From the IMG/VR virus record IMGVR_UViG_3300029910_000091, positions 1 to 22,961 of that record: 22,961 nt of DNA; one strand, written 5' to 3'. Numbering within the stretch: position 1 is the stretch's first letter; each line of letters opens with the position of its first letter. The translations under genes were made by a program, and so were the position numbers. This DNA comes from a virus. Below the pieces are notes generated by a model that did not search any database, was not told the origin of the DNA, and saw only the letters and a list, made by a program, of their open reading frames with translations. Below, in pieces: positions 1,141 through 11,357 of this stretch.

Positions 1141-2362
1141 CTATACTCCGGGCGACCCGAACCCGCCCCGCCAGTCGGCCCAGTTCCCCGAATAGCGTTC
1201 GTAGCAAGCTGCCTTCGCATTCTTCGTATCGAAATCGTTGTCACGATCGAACGAAATCTTATCCCGCTCGAAATACTGCAAACTCCGCGGCACATTGGTG
1301 CGGATGAACCAAGCCGTCGCCGAGCTGAAGTAATGGTTGATCTTGATGCCCTTCGGGAACACCCCGGTCGCGCGCAGCACGTTGATCGCGTTGTTCGAGG
1401 TGTCGTTCTGCAGCACCGATTTGTAGATCCGGTTGGCCTCGAACCAAAGCTGCGGCGGCACGTGCAGGCTTTGGGGAATGCCGCTGATCTTCATCCCGCG
1501 GTTGTTGGTCATCTGCATGATCTGGATGCAGAGGTCTTCCACCGCGACTTCGGACAGATCGGCCGCCGTGGTCAGCAGGTTCGACTGGTTGCCCGACAGC
1601 GTCGGATGAGCATTCGAGAACAGCGATACACCGTCGGCGCCGGGGTAGGACGAATTGAAGGCCTGGTTGTAGACCGACGCCAGCACGTTCTCCTTGGTTT
1701 GCCGCATCGAGAACGCCAGTTGCTGGGCGCGCCGCTTGGAGACCACCTCGTAGAGATCGTCGCGCAGCTCCTCGAAGGTCACGATGTAGCCGAGCGCGTA
1801 CGCCACATGGGTGAAGCGGCTGACCGGCCCCTGCACTTCAGTGTCGTAATAGATCTGCTGACCCTGCGGCTTTACGGGCGCAAGACCAAAGCCGGTGATT
1901 TCCGGCTCTTCTTCGTAAGCCTTGTCGGACACCTCGGTTTCGAACAAATCCGGATATTCCGGGACGTGTTCGTCGTAGGAACGCCCCCACCAAGCCACTA
2001 TTCCAGGCCACACGTCCTATTCGAAGCCGCTCGCTACGCGACCCCCGCCTCTCGGCAGCTACGGCTTTCACCGCAGACTAGACTATATTTTCACCCCGAA
2101 GGGTGTCCGCTCTTTCGCCCCGCTTGGGGCTACGGGCTCACGCCCTAGTCGTTGAAGGTTCCCAGCCTGCTCGGCTAGGCTTCCCTGCTGATTGCCCAAT
2201 CCCATGATTTTCGAACCGTCACGCTCACCATTTCCGGTCACGTTGTGGTCCATGGGCTCTAAGGGGTTCCCAGCAATTTAGCGGATTATCTATCTGAGGT
2301 TTCCTTCAGAAGGCCCTATTTTCAAAGGCTTTTGGATGAGAGCCCGTCGAGATTTCGGCCAT
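1141..2362 (-). CDS. Major capsid protein, split by a group I intron (join of 1141-2010 and 2324-2362)
   Basis: The 5' exon is 13 codons (2362-2324; MAEISTGSHPKAF) behind GAAGGAG. The 3' exon (2010-1141) continues with WPGIVAWWGRSYDEH and gives a 302-residue protein after splicing. It matches the phage head-protein family typified by the Mu-like major head subunit gpT: PEYPDLFETEVSDKAYEE, FGLAPVKPQGQ, YDT..QGPVSRFTHVAYALGYIVT, LFSNAHPTLSG, and a C-terminal ERDKISFDRDNDFDTKN..ACYERYSGNWADWRG. An HK97-type fold is expected for capsid subunits of this kind; that is inference. Without splicing the first exon hits a stop six codons into the intron. A frame beginning at GTG 2013 lacks the N-terminal residues and a ribosome site, so it is not the true start. 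The gene follows the scaffold-like and structural genes, as expected of a head operon. Confidence 0.93.
2011..2323 (-). ncRNA. Group I self-splicing intron (IA-like), 313 nt, no ORF
   Basis: RNA of the minus strand. P1: exon end CCUUU (last U at 2324) pairs with the guide GAAGG, leaving the required U-G wobble at the splice site. P3: UCCGCU (2285-2280) with AGCGGA (2111-2106). P4: UUGCUG (2276-2271) with CAGCAG (2190-2185). P6: AGCCU/AGGCU. P7: GACUA (2150-2146) with UAGUC (2085-2081). Two extra hairpins, P7.1 (GGGC GUGA GCCC) and P7.2 (GCCCC AAGC GGGGC), sit between P7 and P3 and are typical of group IA. P8: CACCC UUCG GGGUG. P9: CUGCGG/CCGUAG. The last base is the expected terminal G (2011). 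Both splice sites follow from P1 and from capsid-family alignment. No endonuclease gene lies inside, so mobility would need a separate enzyme. Confidence 0.94.
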
Positions 2363-2429: not shown

Positions 2430-3020
2430 TTAGGTGCCGAGCACTTCGGTGAACTGGTTGAGGTTGATCCGCACCAGCCACTTCGCGTTGGTGCCGACCG
2501 CGTTGCCCGTTTCCTGGAGCAGCTTGACGATGCGCATCTGCAGCGTGTTGGTGGTGGCCAGCGTCGAGCTGTTAAGTTGCCAGCCGGACAGACTGTCGTA
2601 GTTGCTCCCGGTGCCCGCCACGAGATCGGCGTTGCGGCCGGACGCGCCCGAGACCATCGCGCCATTTTCTTGGATCGCGTAGAGCAAGTCCGGGTCGGTG
2701 CAGATGTTGACGTAGGCCGCGGTCGACGCCGGCAAGTACGGCGTTTGGCTTTGCAGCAGCGGAATGGTCGCCAGCCCGGCGTTATTGCTGATGCCCCGGA
2801 AGACGCCCAGGATGTAAGTGCCCCCGCCCGCAGTCGCGATGCCAACGGACTGGATACCGTTACCGTCGCTGCTGTTGGTAATGAGCACCACAGGATCACC
2901 GATGTAGAGCGCCGTGGGGTTCCCGACCGGGACGTAATAGGTGGAGACGGCCCCGTTGTAGGGCTCGCCTGAACTGCGGGAATATGGGGTGAGCCCGCTT
3001 GGCGCGTTGGTATTCGCCAT
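2430..3020 (-). CDS. Probable virion structural protein, 196 aa
   Basis: It starts at ATG 3020 with AGAGGGTG upstream. The protein opens MANTNAPSGLTPYSRSSGEP and is rich in Gly, Ser, Thr, Asn and short beta-strand-like stretches (TALYIGDPVVLI, GTYILGVFRG), ending KWLVRINLNQFTEVLGT. Proteins with this kind of MAN.NAP.GL.P start, placed directly upstream of the capsid gene, occur in many phages and are usually annotated as virion or decoration-like structural proteins; assignment here rests on composition and position. No signal peptide, membrane helix or enzyme motif is seen. It is transcribed just before the capsid gene with a 67-base gap. Confidence 0.75.
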   Translation of the reverse strand: MANTNAPSGLTPYSRSSGEPYNGAVSTYYVPVGNPTALYIGDPVVLITNSSDGNGIQSVGIATAGGGTYILGVFRGISNNAGLATIPLLQSQTPYLPASTAAYVNICTDPDLLYAIQENGAMVSGASGRNADLVAGTGSNYDSLSGWQLNSSTLATTNTLQMRIVKLLQETGNAVGTNAKWLVRINLNQFTEVLGT

Positions 3021-3686: not shown

Positions 3687-4550
3687 TCACTCGTCCTGGT
3701 AATAAGTGGCGCAGTACTCTTCCTTGGTGAGCGGGCGCTTGTTGGCCCGAACCATTTCCGCCGCGTATTTCTCGAAGGCTCGCTTGGCGTCCGCCGGCAG
3801 GTTTTCGAAGGTCTTGGCATCGCGGGAGCGCGGCGATGGGCTGGCGGTGCTGCTGCTCACGGGGGCGGCCTCCTGGCGGCGGGGATTGCTGTCATCAACC
3901 GTTCGGGGTTGCGGTTCCGCGGCGCGCCGAACGCGCCCTGGGAACATGACATCGACGGCTCGGGTGGTGCGTTCCAGCAGATCGGTAATCGGTGCGCCAG
4001 GATTTGCCTTCTCCAGGCGGTCCATGATCTGGACAGCAGCTTGGGAAAGCGTGGGGTCTTCGCGGAACCAGGGATTTCGATCTCCCCATGCTTGCACCTC
4101 CGGCGATACCGGCGCGCTGGCGGGAGCAGCAGCCGAAGCAATCGGTTTCGCCGCCGGCAGCGGGATATCTTCCGCCACCTTGGAAAGCCTCTGGTCCGCC
4201 GCCTTGAAGCCATCAACGTCGCCGGTTTCTACGGCCTTGAGACGTTCGGCCTCGATCTCGGCGCGGGCGCGCTTGAGAGCGGTCTCATTGGCGCGCCGCA
4301 CCGTCTCCGTGAGAGTTTCGAGCGTCTTGGCTGTGTCGCGCTGGTACGTGGCGAAGCGGTTTTCCAGCGTCTTATATCGCTCGCGGATAACCGGGAGGTC
4401 TTCCTCGCCGTGCTTGAGGAAGGTCTCGGCATCGCGCCACTGCTCCGGCGGTCCCTTGAATTCTTCCTTAGGCTTCCAGCCGGCGAGGCGGGCGCGCTCT
4501 TCGACCGTCGGCGCCTCGGCTTGACCCTCCATATTTTGAGCCGCAGACAT
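3687..4550 (-). CDS. Scaffold-like head assembly protein, 287 aa
   Basis: It starts at ATG 4550. The composition fits a capsid scaffold: an acidic and helical N-terminal part (ERARLAGWKPKEEFKGPPEQW, DAETFLKHGEEDLPVIRERYKTLENR), a long coiled-coil-prone section (about residues 55-120, with TLETLTETVRRAN and ALKRARAEIEAERLKAVE), an Ala/Pro-rich linker, and a small basic C-terminal segment (FEKYAAEMVRANKRPLTKEEY), the part that in scaffolds usually contacts the capsid. The GWKPKEEFKGPPEQWRDAE signature is common in phage proteins annotated as scaffold. It lies next to the co-chaperonin gene and upstream of the capsid gene. I see no protease motif. Confidence 0.8.
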   Translation of the reverse strand: MSAAQNMEGQAEAPTVEERARLAGWKPKEEFKGPPEQWRDAETFLKHGEEDLPVIRERYKTLENRFATYQRDTAKTLETLTETVRRANETALKRARAEIEAERLKAVETGDVDGFKAADQRLSKVAEDIPLPAAKPIASAAAPASAPVSPEVQAWGDRNPWFREDPTLSQAAVQIMDRLEKANPGAPITDLLERTTRAVDVMFPGRVRRAAEPQPRTVDDSNPRRQEAAPVSSSTASPSPRSRDAKTFENLPADAKRAFEKYAAEMVRANKRPLTKEEYCATYYQDE

Positions 4551-4551
4551 T

Positions 4552-4968
4552 TCAGTCCCTACCTTCCATCACGCCGGCGATGCTGCGATCCTGCATTACC
4601 CGGTAGAGTTCGCCGTCCAACCCGGTGTACTCCTGACCAGAATATTTCTGAAAGCACACGCGAACCCCTGGCTCAGGTTTGAGGCCCTCCCATTTGACGG
4701 TCCGGTCAGTGTCCCAACCGAAGGCCTGCGGCCCGACGGCGACCATGATGCCGGTGGTGCTCGCGAGCGACATCCGGTCCTGCTGATCGTCGGGAAGGAG
4801 GATGCCCCCCTTGGTGGTACTCATCGAGGCATCGACTTTCACCACCACCTTGTCGCACAGCGGCACAATGCCGGACTGGTTGGTGCCGTCCCATTCGGAC
4901 AGGATGTACTGGCCGTGCTGGGTCTTGAGAACGCGCGGCGTCAACTCGCGCGGGGCTGTTTGGCTCAA
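4552..4968 (-). CDS. Phage GroES-like co-chaperonin (Cpn10 fold)
   Basis: The body matches the Cpn10/GroES family in order: PLCDKVVVKVD (first strand; GroES has PL.DRV.VK), STTKGGILLPDDQQD (mobile-loop region with GGI followed by a hydrophobic triplet that would bind GroEL), GIMVAVGP (GxVxAVGxG-like), KPEPGVRVCFQKYSGQEY (GD.VLFxKYxGxE-like) and a C-terminal LYRVMQDRSIAGVM (EYLIMREDDILAVI-like). Phage co-chaperonins such as T4 gp31 direct host GroEL to fold the capsid protein, which fits its place two genes before the scaffold-like gene. I prefer a TTG start at 4968: a perfect AAGGAG sits 7 bases upstream and there is no overlap with the previous gene. An ATG at 5007 would add 13 residues but lacks a ribosome site and overlaps the previous gene by 35 bases. 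Confidence 0.87.
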   Translation of the reverse strand: MSQTAPRELTPRVLKTQHGQYILSEWDGTNQSGIVPLCDKVVVKVDASMSTTKGGILLPDDQQDRMSLASTTGIMVAVGPQAFGWDTDRTVKWEGLKPEPGVRVCFQKYSGQEYTGLDGELYRVMQDRSIAGVMEGRD

Positions 4969-4972
4969 GTGC

Positions 4973-5356
4973 TCACTCCTTGGCGATAACGAGGCGACTG
5001 TAGACATAGAAGAGTCGGAGCGCCACGTTGGCGCGCTGCTCCGGGTCGTTCATCATGCCGATCTGATCGACCGGAATGAACTCGGCCTGCCGCATCTCCG
5101 GTTTGTTGCGCCAATATACGATATTGGCCCCTGGGACGGTTTCGGCGTAGTCCCAGGCCGAATGGAGCCACGATGCTACGGCGTCTTCCTCGGCGGTGAA
5201 AAAGGCCTTCATGGGCGTCCCGGCGGGACCAGGCTCGCGGTTACCGCCGCTCACCAGGCACACGAACGGCACGCCGTTGGGCGCCCGCGCGGCCGGGTCG
5301 CACAGTACCACGGTCATCTGGTGCTCGATCGCCTTGGTGGCTTCTTCTAGCGTCAC
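4973..5356 (-). CDS. Hypothetical protein, 127 aa
   Basis: It starts at GTG 5356, which overlaps the stop of a 34-codon gene (GTGA), with GGAAGG about 10 bases upstream. The protein begins MTLEEATKAIEHQMTVVLCDP, has a Gly/Pro loop (GGNREPGPAGTPMKAFF), then EEDAVASWLHSAWDYAETVP and ANIVYWRNKPEMRQAEFIP, and ends with a helical VALRLFYVYSRLVIAKE. It is probably a soluble alpha/beta protein. No metal site or catalytic motif is obvious. It lies between the portal-side small genes and the co-chaperonin. Function unknown. Confidence 0.75.
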   Translation of the reverse strand: MTLEEATKAIEHQMTVVLCDPAARAPNGVPFVCLVSGGNREPGPAGTPMKAFFTAEEDAVASWLHSAWDYAETVPGANIVYWRNKPEMRQAEFIPVDQIGMMNDPEQRANVALRLFYVYSRLVIAKE

Positions 5357-6240: not shown

Positions 6241-6539
6241 GCTGGGGCTCCGTAGAAGCGCTGGATTGACCCGAGCGACAGTTCTTGGACCTCATCACAG
6301 ACCATCATGCGGCCGCGATAGTGCTGGGCCGCGAGTTCGGTGAGGTTGCCGGCGAGGCAATCGAAAACGAGCTTTTGCTCAAGCTGCACCCGGTAGTCCC
6401 GGAGAAACTGGAACGCCAGGCGGGTGACCGGATGGTGCCGCCACGCCTGGAACTGCTCCGGGGTCAGCTCCCTGAGCAGGGGCGGCAGTAAGTCCGGCGA
6501 CGCTGGCGGGGCTACTTCCGCCTGTGCTGGGTTGGGCAT
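6237..6539 (-). CDS. Hypothetical protein overlapping the portal 3' end, 100 aa
   Basis: It starts at ATG 6539 with GGAG about 8 bases upstream, although this lies inside the portal gene: the first half of this gene (6379-6539) overlaps the portal tail in another frame by 161 bases. After a Pro/Ala-rich start it has LTPEQFQAWRHHPVTRLAFQFLRDYR, then YRGRMMVCDEVQELSLGSIQRFYG, a pattern (LTPEQ..AW..HPVT..F..FLRD ... RG....DE...L....IQRFYG) that recurs in small proteins next to phage portal genes. The conserved part begins within the overlap, so the overlap looks genuine. Probably a helical head-operon accessory protein. Confidence 0.78.
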   Translation of the reverse strand: MPNPAQAEVAPPASPDLLPPLLRELTPEQFQAWRHHPVTRLAFQFLRDYRVQLEQKLVFDCLAGNLTELAAQHYRGRMMVCDEVQELSLGSIQRFYGAPA

Positions 6540-8565
6540 TCAACAACTCCATCTGGAAGCGTAAGCTTTCTATCTGCGCCCCATACCAATTTTGGTTGAC
6601 TTCCTCATCGGCCTTCCGAGCCTGAGCCAGATTGAGGATCGAGCGGCTCAAGCTCTCGATCTCGGAAGCTTTGTCCTTGCCGCGGCGGAGGTCCAAATCA
6701 CCCTGCTCATGCGCGGCGCGAATTTGAACTTCCTGCTGCCGAATTTGCAACTCAGCTGCCTTCGCGGTGACTTCCGGATTGGCCGGCGGCTGCTGCACCA
6801 GCAACTCTTCCGGATTCGGGAACTGCGCCGCATCAAGCATTTGCAGGCGAATAGTCCGAGGGTTAAACCACGGATCATCCTTGAACTGCAACAGAAACTG
6901 CGCGCGTCCCAGCTTCTGCATATCCGTGATCATCCGAGGATCGGAAACAGGCTCAACGCCGGCGCCCTCCTCGTAGTCGGCGCGGGTAATCTGCTTCCAC
7001 TCAGTCCCAAGCATGTAGCCAGTCTCGATCGGGAGATAGAGCCGATTGAGTCGGAATAGCTTTTTGAATTCCTGTTTCAAGGACCGATAGATGCGCTTGT
7101 AGATCGCGCTGAAGACGGCCAGGCCCTGCTCGATCATCGCAAGCGTGGCCACCCCGCTGGTGTTGTCGCCAGGCAGATCGCCCACCATTACGTCTTTGAC
7201 GGCAGCCACTTCCTTCCCGGCCTCGATCAGGAATTGCAGCAAAGAGAACAGCACCGGGTTGGGGCCTGGAAAAGGCAGCGGGAGTACATTGTCCCGAATC
7301 GTGCCGTTGCTCACGTTGACGGGTTTGTACTCGCCGACCTGGAACCGGACCGCGCCGGTATTCATCGACAGGCCAGACCCAATGAAGCCCCCGCCAGCAT
7401 TCGCGAGGTGCCCAGCGTCGAAGAGTTGGTTCAACGTCGAGTTCACCGCCTCATTGATCGGGAACAGCAGGTGGCCAAAGCCGATGTCGTACACGCCGCC
7501 GTCCGGATTCGGAATGAACCCATATTTCGTGTAGTAGGGCACCGGCTTGATCTTGCGAATGCGATGGTCCTTCGAACTGAAGAAGACCCCGTCCATGTCG
7601 TAGGCAGCCTTGATGCGTGCGAGTTTTCCGCTCTCTTTCGAGACGGTGACGATGTAGGGCTCCGGGTAGCCGTCATCGTCGAGATCCCACCGGCGATGCT
7701 GTTCCAGGAACGTCATCTTGGCGTCTTCGTCCTGGCCGGCGTCCTGGTCTTGGCCGTAATCCTCTTCCAGGTAGAGCCCCGACCGAATGCGCTCTTCCAC
7801 CTCGTGCGGGTAGAGTTCCAGAATCTCGGTGACACGCGGCGCGGTATCGAAGCTCTTGGCCTTGTAGTTCACGCACACCTGAAGCGCGGTGACTGTCTCG
7901 CTGACGTTGCGCTGTATGCTCGGGTCGAAGTAGGACTTGCGGAACATCGTGCCGACAATCGGAAGCGTCACGAGCAGCGCATCCGTCTGCGGTTCCCACT
8001 CTTCCTGTTCGTCGAGCAGTTGCCAGGACATGTGCTGGCCGATCTTGTCGGCGCGCTGTTTTTTGATGCCAGGCGGAATCTGCCAGACCGGTCCCTGCGG
8101 CCCGGCGGCGGGTTGCTTGGTGCGCGGGTCGATCACCGGCACGCCGTCGTCAGGGCCAATGACCGAGCCCTTGACGACATTCCGGTCTTTGATGATGGCG
8201 GGATAGGCCCGCGCGGCGAACTGGATGGCGGCCGTTGTGATCATCGGGTAGATGACGTTGGAGGCGGAGGGCCAAGGATAGGTCTTCGCTTCAGTCACTT
8301 GAAGCGCAAACTTCAGCCACTTCTCGTATTTCTCCTTCCAGTCGGCACGGCTTTCCTCGTCGATATCGTAATCCCGCAGCACCGCGTTGGCGATGCGCTG
8401 CCCCTCGGCTTCGTCGATGTCGAGCGCGATATTGTCGGACTCAATCCAGCGCTTGAGCTGGTCGGCGAGCGCCATGTTGGGCTTGGCCTCGATATCGTCC
8501 ACGGCCTCGCGCGCCTCGGCATTCTCCGGCAGCTTCAGGGCAGCGAGGGCGGCGGCAGCGGTCAA
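6379..8565 (-). CDS. Portal protein, 728 aa
   Basis: The portal forms the dodecameric ring at the head vertex through which DNA is packaged and to which the neck attaches. Evidence is the length, the position directly after the large terminase gene, and motifs of large portal families: an N-terminal WIESDNIALDIDEAEGQRIAN and YEKWLKFALQVTEAKTYPWPSASNVIYPMI, a middle part with DMDGVFFSSKDHRIRKIKPVPYYTKYGFIPNPDGGVYDIGFGH broken by loops, then GDLPGDNTSGVATLAMIEQG and a long helical stem/crown region (IYKRIYRSLKQEFKKLFRLN). The C-terminus is Gln/Ala-rich helix followed by a Pro/Gly-rich tail that overlaps the next gene in another frame. The start is TTG 8565 with AAAGGA 6 bases upstream; no ATG or GTG fits better. 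Confidence 0.9.
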   Translation of the reverse strand: MTAAAALAALKLPENAEAREAVDDIEAKPNMALADQLKRWIESDNIALDIDEAEGQRIANAVLRDYDIDEESRADWKEKYEKWLKFALQVTEAKTYPWPSASNVIYPMITTAAIQFAARAYPAIIKDRNVVKGSVIGPDDGVPVIDPRTKQPAAGPQGPVWQIPPGIKKQRADKIGQHMSWQLLDEQEEWEPQTDALLVTLPIVGTMFRKSYFDPSIQRNVSETVTALQVCVNYKAKSFDTAPRVTEILELYPHEVEERIRSGLYLEEDYGQDQDAGQDEDAKMTFLEQHRRWDLDDDGYPEPYIVTVSKESGKLARIKAAYDMDGVFFSSKDHRIRKIKPVPYYTKYGFIPNPDGGVYDIGFGHLLFPINEAVNSTLNQLFDAGHLANAGGGFIGSGLSMNTGAVRFQVGEYKPVNVSNGTIRDNVLPLPFPGPNPVLFSLLQFLIEAGKEVAAVKDVMVGDLPGDNTSGVATLAMIEQGLAVFSAIYKRIYRSLKQEFKKLFRLNRLYLPIETGYMLGTEWKQITRADYEEGAGVEPVSDPRMITDMQKLGRAQFLLQFKDDPWFNPRTIRLQMLDAAQFPNPEELLVQQPPANPEVTAKAAELQIRQQEVQIRAAHEQGDLDLRRGKDKASEIESLSRSILNLAQARKADEEVNQNWYGAQIESLRFQMELLNAQPSTGGSSPASVAGLTAAPAQGADPGAVPGVAAPSGHPPGVPVSPGLPGAA

Positions 8566-8614: not shown

Positions 8615-11116
8615 TCAATATCCGGTCACCGAAGAGCGCGTGCGGTCATCGATCAGGCGGCCCGCGCGGTTGTAGGTCTCGTAGATCGCGTCCATGTCCC
8701 GGCCGCGCAGAGCATCGCCGAACAACCAAGCCCCGGTGTAGCCCAGGCAGTCAGCGATATGGGAGTTGCCCGTGACGAAGGTCTGTCCATTTTGTCGGCA
8801 AATCCAATTCCCAGTTCCTGTAGTAGGGCACCACACACCCGCCGCAGTTCCTACTTTGCGCGCTTTGCGGTCGATGTTCATATCAGGGCGCCGCGCAAGA
8901 AGCGTGAGAATGTAACCGTGCGGCGCCTTCCGAGTGTGGGTTCTTAATCCTGAAAGGACTGCCATCATTTGGAGGGCGTCGATTGCTTGGGCTGATTTCT
9001 GGAAAGCTCGGGGAGTAATACCTTTGGGGGCAAAGTCCCGAGCGCGAGACAGATTGTTCGGGGGAGGCAAATCACCTCCAGCATGTCCGTCGCCGCGAAT
9101 GAATTCATAAATGAAACGGCGCCTGTTTATATTGCTCATTTTCACGACAAAGTCACAGGAAGGAATTTTGTTGGGCATCCAATGGCGGATAGCCCATGCT
9201 GTTTCCTTGGTGATTCTCCACGTCTTCATGTGAGAAGAGCCTGATTTATAAGGCGAATGCTCAATTGTCCCAGCAAATTTCGCCAAAAGAGCGTCCAGAT
9301 ACGCGACATAGTTCGGGTTGTGCTTGATACTCTGGCAGAGAAGAATGGCTTCATCCTGCCGCCGGTAGCTTCCTTCGGCCATCACCCATGCGCACAACGA
9401 TATGAAGTCATGGGAGAAAGGCTGTTGTTTCCGGGGACGCTGTTCGCTCGCGGCGCACACGAACGATTGGCCCATCTTGAGATCGGCGGTCGCCACCATC
9501 TTTAGGGCGCCGAGTTTTGTTCTTATGACATTTTGATGCTGGGCTGTGGAAACGAATGAAGAATGAATTCCCCCTACGGTGACAACTGGCGCCGTCTCAG
9601 GAAACAGATTTACGGCGTTCACAGTGGTATGGATGATCCGGTCCGCGGAAAGATCGTAGCCGTACACCCTTTCCCCAACGCGGGTTTGATGATGAAATTT
9701 CCATCCTTCAAGGGTCAGAATCTCTGAGTCCAACGGAACGCAAAATCGGTTTTTGGCGGGGAGATCCGAATATCGCTCCTCCGCTGTCCTCATGCGCTGG
9801 AAGTGATACCCGCCCAGCAGTGCCCGCCGGAGCGTTTTGCAGCGGGGATGAAGGACAAACTGGGGTTTACCCCCGATCAAGGTGTTGAGCGGCTTCCTGG
9901 TGCCTTCCAGCCTCAGCGCAAGCGACTGCGGCGCCGCTTTGATGTCGATTTCCTTGGCTCGCATGATCTCGAAACAGGTACGCTCATCGGTCTGTGCGCG
10001 CTGATTGCCCGCGGGATCGCCGATATCGACGAAATCAGACGCGGGATAATTGATCGCCGAGTGCTCGAGTACCTCATCGCTAAACCGGTCAATCCCCATG
10101 CTGGTGGAAGTCATCTCATCGACGATGATCCAGCGGCCGGCCGGCGTCATCTGGGAGAAAAGGCACGCCGGCGTGAGCCCGAAGTCGTATGCCCGATAAA
10201 TCGGCACGCCGGCGAGCGTCCGCGGTTGGAGCTTCGGGTCGGAGGGACAGTGCATTTCGTCAGAATACTCCGGGAAAACCGCTTTCCCCTCGACCGCGAA
10301 TCCATACTCGCCCTTGATGTTGACCTTGATCCAATCCTCGGACTTCCCCACCCGGAGCTTTTGATAATAGCCAACTGGCAGGTTTGGCAGGTTTTCAGCG
10401 GCCGGTGATAGGCCGGAGGGTTGCTTGAAGACGGCGCTGTAGTGGTCCAGCGTCATGCCGGGGATCACCGCGGCCAAGTCCTCAACCGCTTCAGCGTGCC
10501 CTTCTCGCTCTTCGAAGAACCGATACCAATCCGAATCCGTGTCGGGTGGGTTTGTGTCGGAGATGATGCCATACCAGGATGCCCCGCCGTCCTTCTTGGC
10601 CGGATAGCGACCCACGCGGCCGGTGAGGGTGTTGAAGATCACCCATGGCACGTCGCGCCCTTCGTTGATCCAGCCGCCGGTGTATTCGGTCGAGAGCAGG
10701 TTGCCGAGCTGGTCAGGCCGATCGAGCGCGCGGAAGTTGAGTTCGATTTCCGCGTTGCGATCATCGCCGGCCTGCTTCAGCGACTTCAGGACGAAATCAT
10801 GGCTCGACGCCTTCCACGTGCCGTGGATATGCGGCGGAAACCACTGGAAGAACGTCTTGATCGTACTGTCCTCCAGCATCCGGAAGGTATTGCGGATCAC
10901 CACCCAGCGCGAGCGCCGCACGCCGTCCGGGCTGGGCCGCTGCGCTACGCCGCGCTGGGCGATTTCCCACACGCACGCCGATGATTTGCCGCCGCCGACC
11001 GGTCCTACAATGCCGCGAATGAATGCGTCCGAATCCATGAACCGGGCGATAGTGGGGCAGTCCCGGACTGAATAGGCGGCGCCCACGCTATCTGTGCGCC
11101 GTGGCGCACTCCCCAT
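8615..11116 (-). CDS. terL: Large terminase subunit interrupted by an intein
   Basis: Packaging ATPase/nuclease motor. Numbering from GTG 11122, two codons before the preferred ATG 11116: Walker A GPVGGGKS at 40-47, Walker-B-like WINE at 151-154, then an RNase H-like nuclease with AYDFG (D313), DIGDPAG (366-372) and the last motif SHIADCLGY (787-795). Between F460 and S787 lies a 326-residue intein; the joined exteins make a terminase of about 507-509 residues, a normal length. Start choice: ATG 11116 or GTG 11122 (GAAGG 5 bases upstream); both overlap the previous gene by about 30 bases. No small terminase subunit is recognisable among the genes transcribed just before it. Protein splicing is needed for an active nuclease, since the insertion separates D313/D366 from D791. 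Confidence 0.93.
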   Translation of the reverse strand: MGSAPRRTDSVGAAYSVRDCPTIARFMDSDAFIRGIVGPVGGGKSSACVWEIAQRGVAQRPSPDGVRRSRWVVIRNTFRMLEDSTIKTFFQWFPPHIHGTWKASSHDFVLKSLKQAGDDRNAEIELNFRALDRPDQLGNLLSTEYTGGWINEGRDVPWVIFNTLTGRVGRYPAKKDGGASWYGIISDTNPPDTDSDWYRFFEEREGHAEAVEDLAAVIPGMTLDHYSAVFKQPSGLSPAAENLPNLPVGYYQKLRVGKSEDWIKVNIKGEYGFAVEGKAVFPEYSDEMHCPSDPKLQPRTLAGVPIYRAYDFGLTPACLFSQMTPAGRWIIVDEMTSTSMGIDRFSDEVLEHSAINYPASDFVDIGDPAGNQRAQTDERTCFEIMRAKEIDIKAAPQSLALRLEGTRKPLNTLIGGKPQFVLHPRCKTLRRALLGGYHFQRMRTAEERYSDLPAKNRFCVPLDSEILTLEGWKFHHQTRVGERVYGYDLSADRIIHTTVNAVNLFPETAPVVTVGGIHSSFVSTAQHQNVIRTKLGALKMVATADLKMGQSFVCAASEQRPRKQQPFSHDFISLCAWVMAEGSYRRQDEAILLCQSIKHNPNYVAYLDALLAKFAGTIEHSPYKSGSSHMKTWRITKETAWAIRHWMPNKIPSCDFVVKMSNINRRRFIYEFIRGDGHAGGDLPPPNNLSRARDFAPKGITPRAFQKSAQAIDALQMMAVLSGLRTHTRKAPHGYILTLLARRPDMNIDRKARKVGTAAGVWCPTTGTGNWICRQNGQTFVTGNSHIADCLGYTGAWLFGDALRGRDMDAIYETYNRAGRLIDDRTRSSVTGY
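8765..9742 (-). mobile_element. Intein with LAGLIDADG endonuclease domain inside terL
   Basis: In-frame insertion of 326 residues. It begins with Cys461 (block A: CVPLDSEILTLEGW), has block B TxxH within STAQHQNVIR (T526, H529), and ends VTGN followed by Ser787 as the first extein residue, so splicing chemistry residues C1, TxxH, terminal N and +1 S are present. The penultimate residue is Gly rather than the common His, a known variation. Two LAGLIDADG-type helices are seen: LCAWVMAEGS (acidic E583) and FIYEFIRGDGHAGGD (acidic D678), so the homing endonuclease may be active. The DNA is visibly richer in A/T than the flanking terminase, consistent with separate acquisition. The site, just before the nuclease SHxAD motif, is highly conserved in terminases. 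Confidence 0.93.
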
Positions 11117-11357
11117 GGGCACAATCGCCTTCGGGATGCGCCATGCCGGGGTATTTCTTGGCGACCTTGGTACGAACGGCCTTCTTCTCGGCTGGCGTTC
11201 CGTTCGCGCTGACGCGGGAAAGGGCGTTCCGAGCGTGTGACCGGTCCGGGATGGGATAGCTGCCGGAGCCCTTCCCTTCCGGGCCTTTGCCCTTTCCGGG
11301 CAGCGCGAAGTCCGACTTCGGGAGCTTCTTCCGGTCAGCCGCTGTCAATTTCGCCAT
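11088..11357 (-). CDS. Small basic phage protein, 89 aa
   Basis: I prefer ATG 11357: AAGGAG lies 8 bases upstream and the product begins MAKLTAADRKKLPKSDFALPG, the usual start of this recurring phage family (KLTAA.RK.LP.SDFALPGKGKGP ... GSYPIPD.SHARNALSRVS..GTPAEK..VR.KV..KYPGM). An upstream ATG at 11408 overlaps the previous stop (TGATG) but has no ribosome site; it would add 17 residues. The protein is basic and Lys/Gly-rich with no membrane segment. The family is common beside packaging genes and has no established function. It overlaps the terL start by about 30 bases. Confidence 0.8.
   Translation of the reverse strand: MAKLTAADRKKLPKSDFALPGKGKGPEGKGSGSYPIPDRSHARNALSRVSANGTPAEKKAVRTKVAKKYPGMAHPEGDCAHGECATAHR

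Follow-up and report, generated by a model that had tools for sequence, protein, structure and literature searches.

Does the major capsid gene in this viral genome contain a group I intron near its beginning, and between which nucleotides would it splice? The window, meaning the whole stretch of DNA analysed, is a 22,961-base IMG/VR virus record (IMGVR_UViG_3300029910_000091), a single metagenomic contig. The best-supported answer, and a very probable one, is that a self-splicing intron of group IA type splits codon 13 of this gene in an uncultured tailed phage. It draws on RNA family membership, a covarying fold, intronless homologues and a restored reading frame. Coordinates are collected in Table 1.

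The interrupted capsid gene

The minus-strand ORF at 1141-2013 matches a major head protein family (phrog_371, E = 1.7e-8) and Pfam Phage_capsid_4 (E = 2.3e-6). Homologues were kept from 80 IMG/VR loci (73-88% identity); a further 19 are found in bacterial genomes, chiefly Gluconacetobacter prophages, and 20 among phage records, several of which carry the annotation major capsid protein. The family is that of the Gluconacetobacter prophages and, more distantly, of Caulobacter phage RW. The host of this uncultured tailed phage probably belongs to the Alphaproteobacteria.

A mechanical ORF list begins the capsid gene at a GTG at 2013, as was foreseen for the unspliced gene. This is an annotation trap; a capsid gene called in this way would miss the real start and the first 12 residues. 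Exon 1 opens with an ATG preceded by a Shine-Dalgarno-like AAGGAG. Read unspliced from this ATG, the frame stops at residue 19 (18 residues translated), and full-length capsid synthesis therefore needs splicing. Excision of the intron restores a 302-aa capsid frame, and the predicted N-terminus after splicing is MAEISTGSHPKAL.

Table 1. Features of the capsid locus, the intron and the neighbouring genes (window coordinates)
Feature	Position	Strand	Remarks
Major capsid gene, exon 2	1141..2012	-	Begins TG TGG CCT GGA; family matches and homologues
Group I (IA-type) intron	2013..2325	-	313 nt without ORF, ending in G2013; RF00028 match, covariation, homologue-set junction
Major capsid gene, exon 1	2326..2362	-	ATG ... 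GCC T, giving MAEISTGSHPKA plus the first base of codon 13; agrees with homologue N-termini
P1	2313..2329	-	Exon GCCU (2329-2326) with guide GGGC (2316-2313); wobble U2326.G2316 closes the helix
P4-P5 domain	2182..2278	-	Extended P5 (P5a-d) with GAAA loop cap; common to 16 other phage and plasmid introns
P7	2150-2146/2085-2081 (domain 2081..2150)	-	Encloses P7.1, P7.2, P3 3' strand and P8
P7.1	2145-2142/2137-2134	-	Inside P7
P7.2	2130-2126/2121-2117	-	Inside P7
P3	3' strand 2111-2106, pairs with 2285-2280	-	3' strand inside P7
P8	2105-2101/2096-2092	-	Inside P7
P9	2076-2071/2064-2059	-	In 2013..2078 with P9.0 and terminal G2013
Small gene, maybe head decoration protein	2430-3020		Position only; phrog_37556, function unknown
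Gene without family match	3687-4550
GroES-like co-chaperonin gene	4552-5007	-	Cpn10, E = 1.2e-13; inside head gene cluster
Portal	6379-8565
Large terminase	8615-11122	-

Splice sites

In the window the conserved HPKA extends to 2327 and WPG starts at 2010. All in-frame cuts after U at the 5' end and after G at the 3' end were taken as candidates; only 2325..2013 (x = Leu) and 2323..2011 (x = Phe) keep HPKA-x-WPG. The homologues are uninterrupted: insert-free joining with an open upstream frame was found at 79 of 80 IMG/VR loci and at all 19 bacterial loci. The remaining IMG/VR locus (L019) is shifted and was left unscored, which leaves 98 scorable homologues. All 98 have L-W-P-G at the junction, mostly as HPKA-LWPG, and the Leu is invariant; 2325..2013 was chosen for this reason. 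U2326 is thus joined to U2012, reading GCC U/UG UGG (Ala-Leu-Trp-Pro), and the insertion separates the first and second bases of codon 13. The spliced protein reads SHPKA-L-WPGIVAWW.

The ribozyme geometry agrees with this cut. Read off the sequence, a P10 is possible (U2012-A2317, G2011.U2318, U2010-A2319), as is a P9.0 immediately before G2013 (G2078-C2014, U2077-A2015). The P1 register of the Rfam alignment contains a C.C mismatch and was dropped in favour of a register without one.

The original prediction placed the same intron at 2323..2011, joining 2324 to 2010 to give SHPKAF-WPG. That cut is in frame, removes 313 nt, follows a U and ends on a G, but it is very improbable. Its junction residue is Phe against the invariant Leu. 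U2324 pairs with A2317 in the Rfam register or faces a U in the better one, so that the U-G splice wobble, which does exist at U2326.G2316, is lost there. P9.0 before G2011 would consist of two wobbles, compared with G-C and U-A before G2013. The length of the insertion and the restoration of the frame thus hold as first described; both ends lie 2 nt away, and homologues and the P1 wobble move the junction to 2326 and 2012.

Intron class and fold

A match to the Rfam group I model was expected on this strand and was found: RF00028 aligns to 2059-2335 (-) over its full length (model 1-253) with 79.1 bits (E = 6.8e-19; gathering score 50). It is the single match when the whole window is scanned with cmscan against all Rfam families. 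A search confined to 1900-2500 returned the same match and no rival RNA family. The element has the group I core P3-P8 with the P3/P7 pseudoknot, a U2326.G2316 pair at the 5' splice site and a terminal G2013. P7.1 and P7.2, which lie between P7 and P3, are a trait of subgroup IA. The intron is probably of type IA2, the subgroup by tradition linked with phage introns (PMC11878797). All three frames are closed within the 313 nt, and the intron contains no homing endonuclease gene. The original prediction of a group IA-type intron with no ORF close to the capsid start is strongly supported; P1, P3-P8, P7.1, P7.2, P9 and the terminal G are all present.

The core helices were placed by hand as an IA-type fold of 73 pairs, and the fold was tested by pair counts on MAFFT alignments built without structure. 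Across six full introns 82.8% of cells are paired, and both sides change in 35 of 73 pairs against 18 in shuffles; the structure was derived from the window sequence, which favours the percentage paired, and changes on both sides weigh more as evidence. None of 500 shuffles reaches the observed number of double changes. Covariation is 0.420, compared with 0.168 for shuffled and at most 0.138 for slid alignments. The P4-P5 domain, aligned for 17 introns, gives 90.4% of cells paired, both-side changes in 13 of 27 pairs and covariation of 0.386 (shuffled 0.156; slid at most 0.092). P3 is 88.9% paired with both-side changes in five of six pairs, and P7 is invariant. P7.2 changes on both sides in four of five pairs; P7.1 is weaker. 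P2 and P6a have little support in the alignment set, and P1 differs between introns, as it should for a helix that tracks each exon. A plain fold of the strand gives weak support (z = -2.66).

This intact core bears on whether the element is a dead remnant, with the capsid translated from the GTG at 2013 and neither exon 1 nor splicing involved. The ORF is indeed open from that GTG, and a weak AGGA lies a short distance upstream of it. However, every core helix is intact; exon 1 retains its ATG, AAGGAG and the conserved HPKA motif, the N-terminal residues are kept in homologues, and the GTG spans the splice site by chance. A dead remnant is accordingly highly improbable.

Relatives of the intron and occupied sites

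A blastn search with the intron (E up to 0.1) matched 140 phage records. No record covers 80% of the intron, and the best reaches 72% identity across 71% of it. At the top stand the RNA polymerase introns of Pseudomonas litunaviruses, followed by RNA polymerase introns of large Serratia and Aeromonas phages; further relatives include Staphylococcus and Streptococcus lysin regions and the Twort nrdE intron with I-TwoI. The relatives sit in phage polymerase, nrd, lysin, terminase and tail genes. Plasmids gave four matches, all partial. On the Nitrosophilus labii plasmid pHRV44 (Campylobacterota), a P4-P5-like stretch is flanked by an integrase-core gene and a hypothetical gene.

An assembly chimera, in which the intron of another genome was joined into the capsid gene, has a negligible chance of being correct: there is one contig only and the whole intron has no known close relative, but the junction is base-exact, the guide pairs with its own exon (P1 GCCU/GGGC, P10 UGU/AUA) and the capsid frame is restored.

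The conserved P4-P5 pattern occurs in at least 120 IMG/VR stretches, and 78 of these, each with a distinct frame, were scanned upstream of the intron for host genes. The assignments are frame-based guesses, the splice partners being unproven: capsid families (Pfam Phage_capsid_3 three, SU10_MCP two; phrog_334 major head protein three), terminase families (four, two and two), tail sheath (three), ribonucleotide reductase (four) and many endonuclease ORFs. These frames indicate that capsid genes are ordinary hosts of the intron family: up to 5 of 78 matched capsid families, a share similar to that of ribonucleotide reductase or polymerase. The argument that capsid genes are rarer intron hosts is therefore weak, given these frames and the capsid introns already published in LittleE and crAss-like phages.

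One contig (L082:3092-3982) contains three group I introns within 900 bases, one of them like that at L083:1094-1320. These introns lie immediately upstream of a frame weakly similar to N4-gp56 capsid, and two overlapping LAGLIDADG_2 ORFs are near. They were not counted as capsid introns; the adjacent frame scores 23.9 bits against a cut-off of 60.

An RF00028 search of the 80 homologue-bearing contigs found no intron anywhere. When the capsid was compared by tblastn with 120 IMG/VR stretches containing the same intron family, there was no match, and thus no sibling intron in the same capsid family among these stretches. A targeted pattern, which recovers the window itself and is blind to variants without WWG or with altered P7, found no second occupied site in all of IMG/VR. 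Two points count against the best explanation: it comes from one metagenomic contig, and IMG/VR yielded no second occupied site by which the allele could be seen to persist.

Predicted splicing and probable route of arrival

Two-step splicing is the standard mechanism for group I introns, and it is the only well-supported reading of this locus. We infer from the sequence that the capsid pre-mRNA would fold, that exogenous guanosine would attack after U2326, and that the freed exon 1 would then attack after G2013 to give an uninterrupted mRNA for the 302-aa capsid. It may be that the genome is defective and its intron inactive, which would kill the capsid gene. As an unspliced transcript yields only 18 residues, the intron could also act as a switch on late expression, tying capsid output to splicing and cell state (GTP, translation); this is unlikely.

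The intron would most likely have been acquired horizontally, out of the large pool of IA introns that phages carry, its endonuclease being either lost or supplied in trans. Some phage introns have no nucleases (PMC11878797). In the flanking window genes scanned, no endonuclease was recognised apart from the intein-like terminase insert described below. As the intron itself encodes no endonuclease, mobility would require a lost or separate nuclease.

Terminase insert

The terminase ORF contains a 326-aa insert (residues 461-786; window 8765-9742, minus strand) which is absent from relatives; their matches reach about residue 460 and resume at 785-787. It is probably an intein, because it has a Cys at its start, TGN before Ser at its end, and two LAGLIDADG-like stretches. 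Pfam gave no match for the insert. On another contig (L081; G080:46045-48306) the terminase open frame is 805 aa, with a large gap around query residue 43, which suggests that terminase genes of this family have a further site for an intein or insert.

Comparison with known phage introns

Capsid-gene introns are already known. In mycobacteriophage LittleE, splicing of a major capsid intron was demonstrated by RT-PCR and N-terminal sequencing, and the authors judged it most likely group I; the same paper mentions an intron in the capsid gene of a lactococcal phage (PMC3706429). The LittleE insertion differs in being 819 bp with a LAGLIDADG-like ORF, in another phage, capsid gene and site (PMC3706429). 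CrAss-like phages of the Delta and Zeta groups also have group I introns in the MCP gene; these were found via endonuclease domains and sometimes occur several per gene, whereas the window intron is single and ORF-less (PMC7886860).

By sequence, the closest known introns are those in the RNA polymerase genes of the litunaviruses PAP02 and Pa_WF01 (Pseudomonas phages; about 72% identity over 71%). They share the extended P5 and the P7.1, P7.2 and P8 layout, but have a different host gene and a separate ORF between the ribozyme and the next exon. The P4-P5 domain of the Staphylococcus phage Twort nrdE intron is 81% identical over 30% of the query; that intron differs in its nrd host gene and in carrying the HNH endonuclease I-TwoI. 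The present intron leaves the picture of phage introns unchanged; it adds a capsid family and a new insertion site to those in which phage IA introns are known.
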